Source: Candidatus Rokuibacteriota bacterium (GTDB lineage: Bacteria; Methylomirabilota; Methylomirabilia; Rokubacteriales; CSP1-6). From it: a stretch of DNA of 51,762 nt. The stretch is taken from the NCBI GenBank assembly GCA_003220435.1, contig QHSL01000086.1, positions 1 through 51,762 on the forward strand, written 5' to 3'. Within the stretch, counting starts at the first letter, position 1, and every line of letters starts with the position of its first letter. The notes under the pieces were generated by a model. The model saw only the letters and a program-made list of their open reading frames with translations, was not told where the DNA came from and searched no databases. A program made the translations under genes and the position numbers. Of the stretch, positions 30,152-34,731 are shown piece by piece.

Positions 30152-30263
30152 CCTTTCAATCGTAGGTGAGGGGGGGTGCCCGGGCTCTAGAAAAACGGAC
30201 AGCCTCTCCGCAAGGCTGGAAGCGGCAGAGTGAGGTATCGTGGGGCCCGAAGGAGGGCGCGCG

Positions 30264-30680
30264 ATGAGCGATATGAAGGTCGACACGGTACGATCATCGA
30301 GCAGCGGGGTGGTCGGTCGGGCGCAGAGCGAGGCGCGAGGCTACCGGCTCCTCCTCGACTCGTCGTCCAGGGCTCAGCCGGACGCGTTCACGAACAGCGA
30401 GGCGTTTCTGGCCGGCGTCTCGTCCTGCGGCGTCACGTTGATCGAGGGGCACGCCAAGGACGTCGGAGTGCCGATGCGGTCCATCCAGGTCACCATCGAG
30501 GGCGCGCGAACGGCGGCCGAGCCGAACCGCTTCGCCACCGTCACGATGACCTTCGAGATCTCTGGCGTGAGTCCGGCGCAGGCGGACGAGCTGGTCGCGA
30601 CCTATCGCGGGCGTTGACCGCTCTACCGTACGGTCGCGGGCGCGACCGACGTGAAGGTTCAGGTGGTGGCGGTTCCGTGA
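30264..30680 (+). CDS. OsmC-family peroxiredoxin, probable selenoprotein with Sec encoded by in-frame UGA
   Basis: ATG 30264 (AGGAGGG upstream) opens a 117-codon frame ending TGA at 30615-30617; the same frame continues for 20 codons (PLYRTVAGATDVKVQVVAVP) to a second TGA at 30678-30680, giving 138 residues. The first part is OsmC: EAFLAGVSSCGVTLIEGHAKDVGV holds the peroxidatic Cys55. The family's second reactive Cys normally lies 63-66 residues later in a C-P motif; here codon 118 is UGA followed by PLYRTV, 63 residues after Cys55. The added tail has the strand pattern expected for this family. Read as Sec, it gives a full-length redox-active thiol/selenol peroxidase. A hairpin at 30627-30651 has bacterial SECIS geometry, and tag starts only 4 bases after the second stop. 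The alternative is a nonsense mutation or base error (TGC to TGA). Confidence 0.68.
30627..30651 (+). promoter_or_regulatory. Candidate bacterial SECIS hairpin inside the OsmC gene
   Basis: Stem cgt-(a)-cggtcgc, loop gggc, gcgaccg-acg: ten pairs with one bulged A, all G-C rich. The apical loop begins 21 bases after the in-frame TGA, within the 16-37 range known for bacterial SECIS elements, and the loop starts GG, as required by consensus. It lies inside the coding frame as bacterial SECIS elements do. Confidence 0.6.
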
Positions 30681-30684
30681 CGAC

Positions 30685-31266
30685 GTGGTGAGCCGGCGGC
30701 GGTGCGCGTGGGCGCAGGGGGCGCTCGATCGCCGTTATCACGACCAGGAATGGGGCGTGCCGGTCCATCACGACCGCCGGCTCTTCGAGATGCTGATCCT
30801 GGAGGGTGCGCAGGCGGGTCTCAGCTGGTCGACGATCCTGAAAAAGCGGATCGCCTACCGCCGGGCGTTCGATCGTTTCGACGCGACGAAGGTCGCGCGC
30901 TACACGGCCGTGCGAGTCCGGCGCCTCCTGAACGACGAGGGGATCGTCCGCAACCGAGCCAAGATCACGGCGACGATCGGCAACGCGCATGCGTTCCTCG
31001 CGGTGCGGCGCGAGCACGGCAGCTTCGACGCGTACCTGTGGCGGTTCGTCGACGGCCGGCCCATCCAGAACGCGTGGCGTCGCCACGGCGAGTGTCCGAC
31101 GGAGACCGACGTGTCGCGGGCCCTCAGCCGCGACCTGCTCGCGCGCGGCTTCCGGTTCGTGGGACCGACGATCTGTTACGCTTTCATGCAAGCCGTGGGC
31201 ATGGTGAACGACCATACCCGCGACTGCTTTCGGTGGCGCGAGGTCCAGCGGCTCGCGCGGCACTAG
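30685..31266 (+). CDS. tag: DNA-3-methyladenine glycosylase I
   Basis: 193 residues. Begins CAWAQGALDRRYHDQEWGVPVHHDRRLFEMLILEGAQAGLSWSTIL, the usual Tag start, with the zinc ligands Cys and His here and in MVNDHTRDCFRW (His, Cys) near the end. NRAKITATIGNAHAFL and RGFRFVGPTICYAFMQAVGMVNDH are further signature pieces. It removes 3-methyladenine from alkylated DNA by flipping the base into an HhH pocket. It starts four bases after the end of the extended OsmC gene, so peroxide defence and alkylation repair would share a transcript. Confidence 0.92.
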   Translation: MVSRRRCAWAQGALDRRYHDQEWGVPVHHDRRLFEMLILEGAQAGLSWSTILKKRIAYRRAFDRFDATKVARYTAVRVRRLLNDEGIVRNRAKITATIGNAHAFLAVRREHGSFDAYLWRFVDGRPIQNAWRRHGECPTETDVSRALSRDLLARGFRFVGPTICYAFMQAVGMVNDHTRDCFRWREVQRLARH

Positions 31267-31301: not shown

Positions 31302-31616
31302 ATGGCTGACAAGCGGAGGGTGCGGGTGGCGGCCGTGGGGGACATCCCGGGCGGGGAGGGGCGCGTGATCGAAGCCGAGGGCAAGACGCTGGCGGTCTTC
31401 AACGTCGACGGCGCCTACTACGCCATCGACAATCTGTGCTCGCATCGCGGGGGACCGCTCGGCGAGGGCGACCTCGACGGCAATGTCGTGATGTGTCCCT
31501 GGCACGCGTGGCGCTGGGACGTCACGACCGGCGCCAACGTCAACAACCCCGCCGTGAAGGTGGCGTGCTACCCGGTCGCCGTCGAGCACGGCACGATCTT
31601 CGTCGACCTGCCCTGA
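31302..31616 (+). CDS. Rieske [2Fe-2S] ferredoxin-type protein
   Basis: 104 residues. Cluster ligands are complete: NLCSHRGGPLGEG (Cys46-x-His48) and MCPWHAWRWDVTTGAN (Cys65-x-x-His68). The rest (VFNVDGAYYAIDN, VACYPVAVEHGTIFVDLP) is the standard small Rieske fold as in NirD and aromatic-dioxygenase ferredoxins. No signal peptide, so a soluble electron carrier. Partner oxygenase is not nearby. It follows tag by 35 bases on the same strand. Confidence 0.88.
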   Translation: MADKRRVRVAAVGDIPGGEGRVIEAEGKTLAVFNVDGAYYAIDNLCSHRGGPLGEGDLDGNVVMCPWHAWRWDVTTGANVNNPAVKVACYPVAVEHGTIFVDLP

Positions 31617-32585: not shown

Positions 32586-33407
32586 CTACCCGGGGATGTG
32601 GGCTTCTTCTGGCAGCTCGGCCCACTTCGGCGTCCACACCGGGACGGTCAGGCCGAACTTCTCGCAGAGGTCCTTCACTTCCGAGGCGAACGCCTGGCGG
32701 ACTTCGTCGTTGTCACGGAGCTTGAGCCTGAGGCGTCGATAGACCTGATTCTTCGGCGATCCGGGCCGTCCGAAGATGTTCATCGTGCGGATGAACCACT
32801 TGCCGAACGTCGCCTGCGCCTCGTCGTGGGTCCGGGGATCCTCGGAGAGCCGCTTCACCCAGTACTCGCCGTGGCGGATGTGAAACTTCTCTTCCTTGAA
32901 GATCCCGTCGATCGCGCGGACCCAGGGACCGTAGGAGCACTCGCGCACGTCCTCGAGCTGGTGACCGGCGCCGCGGTCCATGCAGAAGTTGAAGAAGACG
33001 AAGTCGGCCCAGGTGTCGATCGGATAGTAGAAGATGTTGACGCGCTTGTCGCTCGTGATGCGAGCGGTCCCGATGTCCGCCGTCGCCTCGATCCGCATCG
33101 TGAGGGTCTCGTCGTGCTTGCGCACGTGGGTATCGACGTCGAAGCCGAGGTCGCCGAGGAGCCCGTACATGACCGCGGCGTGGCGGAGCTCGTCCTTCAC
33201 GATCTGGGCGACGACGTGCTTTTCCTCCACGGTCGGCGCCTTGGTGATCCAGGGCACATAGCCGTAGCCGCCGGCCAGCTCGGAGTCGGCTTGCATCGTC
33301 AGCAGATGGACGAGGTTGTCCCGATATTCGGGCGTCATCTCCTCGGCTGATTCGAGCCGGACGCCGCCGTTGATCTTCGCCATCATGTCCCCGGCCCCAT
33401 CGCTCAT
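32586..33407 (-). CDS. Phenylacetate-CoA epoxidase-like diiron subunit (PaaA family)
   Basis: 273 residues from ATG 33407 (GGGAGGGG upstream; an earlier ATG at 33422 is less well placed). The ferritin-like diiron fold is indicated by KDELRHAAVMYGLL (E-x-x-H) and FKEEKFHIRHGEYW (E-x-x-H), with ECSYGPWVRAI before the second, as in PaaA of E. coli. Epoxidation of phenylacetyl-CoA normally needs PaaB, PaaC and the reductase PaaE; none is in the window, so this may be a different aryl-CoA oxygenase or a lone relative. It follows the phenylacetate-CoA ligase by 19 bases, which supports a role on aryl-CoA substrates. Confidence 0.75.
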   Translation of the reverse strand: MSDGAGDMMAKINGGVRLESAEEMTPEYRDNLVHLLTMQADSELAGGYGYVPWITKAPTVEEKHVVAQIVKDELRHAAVMYGLLGDLGFDVDTHVRKHDETLTMRIEATADIGTARITSDKRVNIFYYPIDTWADFVFFNFCMDRGAGHQLEDVRECSYGPWVRAIDGIFKEEKFHIRHGEYWVKRLSEDPRTHDEAQATFGKWFIRTMNIFGRPGSPKNQVYRRLRLKLRDNDEVRQAFASEVKDLCEKFGLTVPVWTPKWAELPEEAHIPG

Positions 33408-33426
33408 CGCGTCCCCTCCCACGCTC

Positions 33427-34731
33427 TCAGGATACTCTACCGCGCTCGATGACGCGCACGGCCTTGCCCTCCGACCGTGGCAGCGTCCGCGGGGCGACGA
33501 TCGTCAGCTCGACGCTGAGGCCGATGGCCTTCTGGAGACGGTCGGCGACGCGCCGCCGGAGCGCGGCGATCTCCGGGTGCTCCACGCTGAAGCCGCCACA
33601 GCGGGCTACCAGCTCGGGCACCGGCTCGACCTGGACCTCGAGCCTCGCCAGCGTGACGGCGCGGTCGACCACGAGCTGATAGTGCGGCGCCAGCTCCTCG
33701 ACGCTCAGCAGCGTGCGCTCCACCTCGGACGGATAGAGGTTCACGCCCTTGACCACCAGCATGTCATCGGAGCGGCCCTTGACGCGCGCCATCCGGACGG
33801 AGGTCCGGCCGCAGCGGCACGGCTCCGTGGTCAGCGAGGTGATGTCGCCCGTCCGGTAGCGGATGAGCGGTATCGCGCGCTTGGTGAGCGTGGTCAGCGT
33901 CAGCTCGCCCTCGGCGCCGGGCGGCAGGCTGGCGCCGGTCGCCGGGTCGATGATCTCCGGCAGGAAGTGATCGTCGGCGATATGCAGACCCGCGCGCTCC
34001 TCGCACTCGCCGGCGACGCCCGGCCCGATGATCTCGGAGAGGCCGTAGGTGTCGAAGGCCCGGAAACCGAAGGCTCGCTCGAGGGCCTCGCGCATGCCTT
34101 CGGTCCAGGGCTCGGCGCCAAACATCCCGATGCGCAGCCCGAGCTCGCCGGGCTTCCCCCCCTGCTCGATCAGTGTCTCGGCGAGGTGGAGGGCGAAGGA
34201 CGGCGTCGCGGCCAGCGCATCCGGTCGGAAATCCTGCAGCAGCAAGTGATGGCGTGTGGTGTTACCGGCCGACACCGGGACCACCGTCATGCCGATCCGC
34301 TCGGCGCCGTCGTGGAAGCCGAACCCGCCGGTGAAGAGACCGTAGCCCAGCGCCACGTGCAGAAGGTCGCCCCGCCGCGCGCCGGTGGCGGTCATCACGC
34401 GCGCCATCACCTCGCGCCAGACCTCGAGGTCGTCGGGCGTGTAAGCGGCGACCGTCGGCTTGCCCTTGGTGCCGGACGATGCGTGGACGCGTGCGACGTC
34501 CTTGCGGTCCACCGCCAGGAGCCCGAAGGGGTACTGCTCGCGGAGATCGCTCTTGCGCACAAACGGCAGATCGACCAGATCCGGGAGCCCGCGGACGGTG
34601 GCAGCGCCCAGCCGGTCCCGGTGAAACGGCACCCGCGCCACAGCCCAGGCGATCGTCTCGGCGAGGCGCTGGAGCTGAAGACGCTCGCGCGCCTCGCGCG
34701 ACATCGTCTCGGCCTCGCGGTTCCAGATCAT
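33427..34731 (-). CDS. paaK: Phenylacetate-CoA ligase
   Basis: 434 residues, the length typical of PaaK. Motifs: VHASSGTKGKPTVAAYT (AMP-binding P-loop), MFGAEPWTEGMREALERAFG, DTYGLSEIIGPGVAGEC (core A5), GELTLTTLTKRAIPLIRYRTGDIT (A7), RMARVKGRSDDMLVVKGVNLYPSEVE (A8/A10 hinge). It activates phenylacetate or a related aryl acid with ATP and CoA. It overlaps the upstream receiver gene by four bases (ATGA) and is followed by the PaaA-like oxygenase. Exact acid substrate is unproven; the family is most often phenylacetate-specific. Confidence 0.88.
   Translation of the reverse strand: MIWNREAETMSREARERLQLQRLAETIAWAVARVPFHRDRLGAATVRGLPDLVDLPFVRKSDLREQYPFGLLAVDRKDVARVHASSGTKGKPTVAAYTPDDLEVWREVMARVMTATGARRGDLLHVALGYGLFTGGFGFHDGAERIGMTVVPVSAGNTTRHHLLLQDFRPDALAATPSFALHLAETLIEQGGKPGELGLRIGMFGAEPWTEGMREALERAFGFRAFDTYGLSEIIGPGVAGECEERAGLHIADDHFLPEIIDPATGASLPPGAEGELTLTTLTKRAIPLIRYRTGDITSLTTEPCRCGRTSVRMARVKGRSDDMLVVKGVNLYPSEVERTLLSVEELAPHYQLVVDRAVTLARLEVQVEPVPELVARCGGFSVEHPEIAALRRRVADRLQKAIGLSVELTIVAPRTLPRSEGKAVRVIERGRVS

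Follow-up and report, generated by a model that had tools for sequence, protein, structure and literature searches.

A predicted OsmC-fold selenoprotein of the Rokubacteriales with selenocysteine at the second reactive site

Known OsmC-like selenoproteins and cysteine-based peroxidases

The known OsmC-like selenoproteins are of the UxxT type, with selenocysteine (Sec) at the site of the first reactive cysteine (Zhang et al. 2005, PMC1088965, table 3). The same motif is given for them in PMC2398784 and in table 1 of PMC13188914. The latter is an inventory from 2026 with 119 families and subfamilies, in which different Sec positions make different subfamilies. In the cysteine-based Ohr proteins, an Arg-Glu pair activates the first Cys for reduction of the peroxide; the sulfenic acid formed on this Cys condenses with the second Cys, and the disulfide is reduced by a lipoylated protein (PMC5962072). 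Cys followed by Sec is the order found in CxxU selenoproteins, among them the AhpD-like and SelW-like proteins (PMC13188914, table 1), where the two residues lie three positions apart within one motif and in other folds.

Here we describe an OsmC gene with an in-frame UGA at the second reactive site, located in a 51,762-nt stretch of DNA (the window). The window corresponds to contig C109 in a draft genome of 5.4 Mb from a Rokubacteria-type member of the Methylomirabilota; the near relatives that bear a name are Candidatus Rokubacteria MAGs. We consider it likely, at a probability of roughly two in three, that the gene represents a new OsmC selenoprotein subfamily of the Rokubacteriales, in which a resolving Sec is paired with a peroxidatic Cys, the reverse of the known type, and works in an S-Se peroxidase cycle. 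Because PMC13188914 counts different Sec positions separately, an OsmC protein with Sec second would be a new subfamily under that rule. It is absent from the curated NCBIfam models and from the 119 families and subfamilies of the 2026 inventory (PMC13188914); an earlier machine prediction is possible.

Gene layout and neighborhood

The gene lies at positions 30264..30680 of the forward strand, the strand also of its sequence elements and of the adjoining Tag gene described below, and encodes 138 residues with a predicted Sec at residue 118. It starts with an ATG at 30264, and a Shine-Dalgarno-like AAGGAGG, recognized from the sequence, is located 7 nt before it (30250..30256). The TGC codon of Cys55, the peroxidatic-site Cys in the motif SSCGVT, is at 30426..30428 and is invariant across the clade. 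Codon 118, at the position of the second Cys (the C-P site), is an in-frame TGA at 30615..30617; Pro119 follows directly, and there are 20 sense codons in all between this TGA and a second one at 30678..30680. The second TGA is the true stop codon, replaced by TAG or TAA in many orthologues, and ends four bases ahead of the GTG of the next gene. Both the reading frame and the placement of the two TGA codons agree with the original prediction, in which the gene had been read from its letters as that of a likely OsmC selenoprotein.

The adjoining gene encodes DNA-3-methyladenine glycosylase I (Tag; 30685..31266), is a neighbor within the same genus only and stands outside the mechanism proposed below. 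Further downstream (31302-31616 and 32586-34731) are a small Rieske [2Fe-2S] ferredoxin-like gene, which likewise adjoins the OsmC gene within the genus only, a gene for a PaaA/PaaC-type protein and one for an AMP-binding enzyme. The neighbors (an upstream membrane protein, the Tag glycosylase and the Rieske protein) were considered as a clue to function and set aside, as the arrangement is common to the genus only. An Rfam search of the window returned nothing at the gathering score.

OsmC fold and the two reactive sites

The read-through product matches the Pfam OsmC family (PF02566) over residues 39-132, a range that spans the TGA (5e-12, 46.5 bits against a cut-off of 27.5). In phmmer alignments to solved Ohr/OsmC proteins, Cys55 is placed on their first Cys, and residue 118 coincides with the Cys in their C-P motif. 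An AlphaFold model of the window protein, built with 28 family members as input, has a pLDDT of 87.9, and its top PDB matches are all OsmC/Ohr proteins (VIA Z up to 15.9). The OsmC identity first proposed for the gene is borne out by the Pfam match across the TGA and by the fold match to OsmC/Ohr PDB entries. The read-through product also matches the Ohr family model, a match that is lost by a 117-residue stub ending at the first TGA; such a stub would have neither the second reactive residue of the active site nor the final helix and strand. The window protein is thus confirmed as an OsmC-fold protein with Cys at the peroxidatic site and UGA at the site of the second Cys.

Compared with the Ohr/OsmC Cys-based peroxidases (TIGR03561, TIGR03562), the window protein is alike in fold, in the Pro after the second reactive residue and in an acidic residue ahead of the first Cys, and the spacing of the reactive residues is 63 (64 in XfOhr); it differs in that its second Cys is Sec. 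With the UxxT type (PMC1088965, NF041052) it shares the OsmC fold, PF02566 and a single Sec at one reactive site, but there Sec occupies the first (peroxidatic) site, whereas the window protein carries Cys at the first site and Sec at the second. The CxxU selenoproteins resemble it in their Cys and Sec pair with Sec second, while the 63-residue separation within an OsmC fold sets the window protein apart from them.

Profile scores agree with a separate placement. The score of the window protein against TIGR03561 (Ohr) is 23.9, below the cut-off of 88.85, and the protein therefore falls outside that subfamily. Against NF041052 (OsmC_like_Se, ‘OsmC-related (seleno)protein’) it scores 20.8 bits, under the cut-off of 95, and the best E among 28 aligned clade members is 3.8e-6; the window clade reaches no curated NCBIfam cut-off.

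Conservation of the UGA

A TGA occupies the codon 118 site in 41/41 copies of the gene, from 39 genomes all within the order; besides the window copy, these are 39 copies at ≥50% identity and one fragment. Across 99 related genomes, each copy at ≥50% identity has exactly one TGA, at the same place, the exception being L042, which has a TAA shortly downstream in addition to the TGA. No close homologue with another codon at residue 118 was found among the 41 copies. The distance from Cys to UGA is 63 residues in the copies that have both sites, as had been noted for the window copy, and 62 in two copies that are one residue short upstream. The residue after the UGA, likened from the start to the Pro of the C-P motif, is Pro in every copy. 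The final stop, by comparison, is TGA in 23 copies, TAG in 12 and TAA in 6; since this codon varies and position 118 never does, position 118 is not behaving as a real stop, which should vary likewise.

Residues +1 to +18 past the UGA have a mean identity of 83% to the window protein, compared with 64% for the 29 residues ahead of the UGA and 12% for the frame continued past the final stop. This upholds the earlier argument against a nonsense mutation, namely that unconserved sequence would be expected to follow one, as does the presence of the same TGA in 39 genomes. L042 (genome G048, G048:C333) is the only copy that loses family resemblance after UGA-Pro-Leu, and it is without the SECIS hairpin described below; it may be decayed or misassembled.

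A profile search of 95 genomes of the phylum recovered the gene in 39, all in the order Rokubacteriales, and none outside the order. Searches for a Cys-118 orthologue found none: 291 genomes of another phylum yielded a single weak match, which has no TGA (E = 1.6e-4, L095), plasmids yielded nothing, and a further phylum, represented by one genome, was uninformative. The Sec/Cys pairing therefore rests on distant OsmC/Ohr proteins.

A candidate SECIS hairpin

A hairpin with arms CGGTCGC and GCGACCG around the loop GGGC is located at 30631..30648. It begins 13 bases past the UGA, and 20 nt separate the UGA from the start of its apical loop. Bacterial SECIS elements are defined in PMC13188914 by a loop of 3-9 nt, a stem of 4-16 bp, a G within the two bases that open the loop, a distance of 16-37 nt from the UGA and an MFE of at most -7.5 kcal/mol. 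The 18-nt hairpin alone, with a stem of 7, a loop of 4 that starts with RG and a folding energy of -12 kcal/mol, lies within each of these limits.

In the 39 copies compared, the arms are nearly invariant and the loop is RGNN. Because the stem base pairs hardly vary, covariation gives no evidence. The synonymous-site test was limited to four-fold codons whose amino acid is conserved; the mean share of minor third bases is 0.02 over the 5 codons within the hairpin and 0.35 over the 19 outside it (permutation p = 6.5e-5). The 59-nt stretch folded whole has a weak z-score (-0.75); the information comes from the 18-nt hairpin on its own and from the synonymous-site test, rather than from this fold.

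Selenocysteine machinery

The genes for Sec synthesis and insertion, for which a search had been proposed, are encoded on the genome: selA and selB are adjacent on contig C138 with tRNA-Sec (selC) 1.3 kb away, and selD maps to C100, each of them scoring above its curated cut-off. ARAGORN identifies the tRNA as Sec with the anticodon TCA (UCA), and selD has an in-frame TGA of its own within the active-site motif ACAGUASK. With all four genes present, the cell is equipped to use Sec. Another selA-like match (L019, G000:C28:7978-8775), which is partial and scores under the curated cut-off, also occurs in many relatives within the genus and is possibly a different PLP enzyme. Among relatives, selA was found in 85/99; it was not found in 4 of the 39 genomes bearing the OsmC gene (G029, G038, G051 and G055, all draft MAGs). 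Co-occurrence with selA was dropped as evidence, as nearly all relatives have selA.

Proposed function and alternative explanations

The conserved UGA, the SECIS hairpin under synonymous constraint and the sel machinery together support the original prediction that the window gene encodes a selenoprotein, which we regard as very probable. Were the UGA an ordinary stop, a 117-residue protein would be functional, and the downstream frame would be a remnant or would be translated only as a minor read-through product. Standard annotation would end the gene at this codon, and L042 does lose homology right past it, but the amino acids beyond the UGA are strongly conserved, TGA is exclusive at the site, the hairpin has frozen synonymous bases, the Sec machinery is complete, and the stub would be deprived of part of the active site and fold; we consider an ordinary stop highly improbable. 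Still less credible is that an error in sequencing or assembly turned TGC into TGA, or that UGA is reassigned genome-wide to Trp or another residue; nothing speaks for either beyond the MAG origin of the genomes. An identical TGA in 39 separately binned genomes makes both sequencing error and nonsense mutation untenable and disposes of a misread TGC at 30615-30617, a possibility raised at the outset, and reassignment is at odds with the UGA that also terminates the same gene in the window and in 22 other copies.

A closer competitor concerns the roles of the two residues, which could be exchanged, with Sec118 attacking the peroxide (or another substrate) and Cys55 resolving. Sec usually takes the place of an attacking Cys. 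In the known Sec-OsmC proteins it is found at the attacking site (PMC1088965, PMC13188914), and in the window clade we did not find, in the expected loop, the Arg that usually adjoins the first Cys: R19 and R25 are invariant, and no Arg is present in the loop equivalent to that of Arg19 in XfOhr. Against the exchange, Cys55 and the nearby E46 are invariant in the clade, Cys55 is placed as in Ohr, and the fold around both sites is the Ohr fold. As the Arg could not be assigned in the loop, we retain exchanged roles as an unlikely but serious alternative. The Arg that is catalytic in Ohr (Arg19 of XfOhr) is not confidently placed, and a peroxidase activity is thus proposed by fold analogy only; on that analogy the window protein is most likely a peroxidase, with Sec118 probably acting as the resolving residue.

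In the favored reading, SelB and tRNA-Sec would insert Sec at UGA118, directed by the SECIS hairpin that follows 20 nt downstream. By Ohr chemistry, Cys55 would reduce an organic or lipid hydroperoxide and become a sulfenic acid, with which the Sec118 selenolate would form a selenenylsulfide (S-Se) bond. The reductant of this bond would be a dithiol, which might be a lipoylated protein, as it is for Ohr. Sec at this site would speed both resolution and re-reduction and guard Cys55 from over-oxidation.

OsmC proteins with Sec at the first site

Earlier predictions of OsmC-like selenoproteins, a precedent invoked for the window gene, do exist, but those proteins carry Sec at the first Cys (UxxT), and the window gene is not simply one more of their kind. 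The same holds for the other UGA-containing copies in our analyses. Paralogue L059, on contig C17 of the same genome, has the motif ULMT with Sec first and Cys second and scores 164 bits to NF041052; L060, the other paralogue on C17, likewise carries Sec first. In related genomes, 54 more TGA-containing OsmC copies have Sec first (54/54); their second site is Cys, replaced by Ser in a few. Together with the two paralogues, all 56 other copies carry Sec at the first site. In the window clade, every copy that spans both sites has Cys first and, judged from its sequence, Sec second. In a tree of 90 OsmC proteins, for which the program warns of few columns and long branches, the copies with Sec second form one clade (support 97/87) with one change of label, and those with Sec first scatter over several groups.

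The same genome thus holds OsmC proteins with Sec first and with Sec second, a natural matched pair for comparing selenium at the attacking and resolving positions in one fold. Ordinary annotation would truncate the latter at residue 117. Sec is a rare amino acid, and the hosts of the Sec-second family are uncultured soil bacteria; Sec-OsmC genes are strongly concentrated in the Methylomirabilota. A 2026 study of groundwater MAGs by Deng et al. is said to include a Methylomirabilota MAG with 63 predicted selenoproteins.

Across G001-G080 (L104-L165), most Methylomirabilota OsmC copies have one in-frame TGA. Outside the window clade, the Sec-first OsmC proteins of this phylum comprise several subfamilies (UTSMT, UMTGT, UMTTT, ULMT), and three of them, tested as core fragments, score below the NF041052 cut-off. 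L059 and L060, each with the TGA at the first Cys site, are about 1 kb apart at ~97.2-98.9 kb of G000:C17; a peroxiredoxin-like gene with the motif RGRW-U-PYC lies between them, making three apparent selenoprotein genes in ~2 kb.
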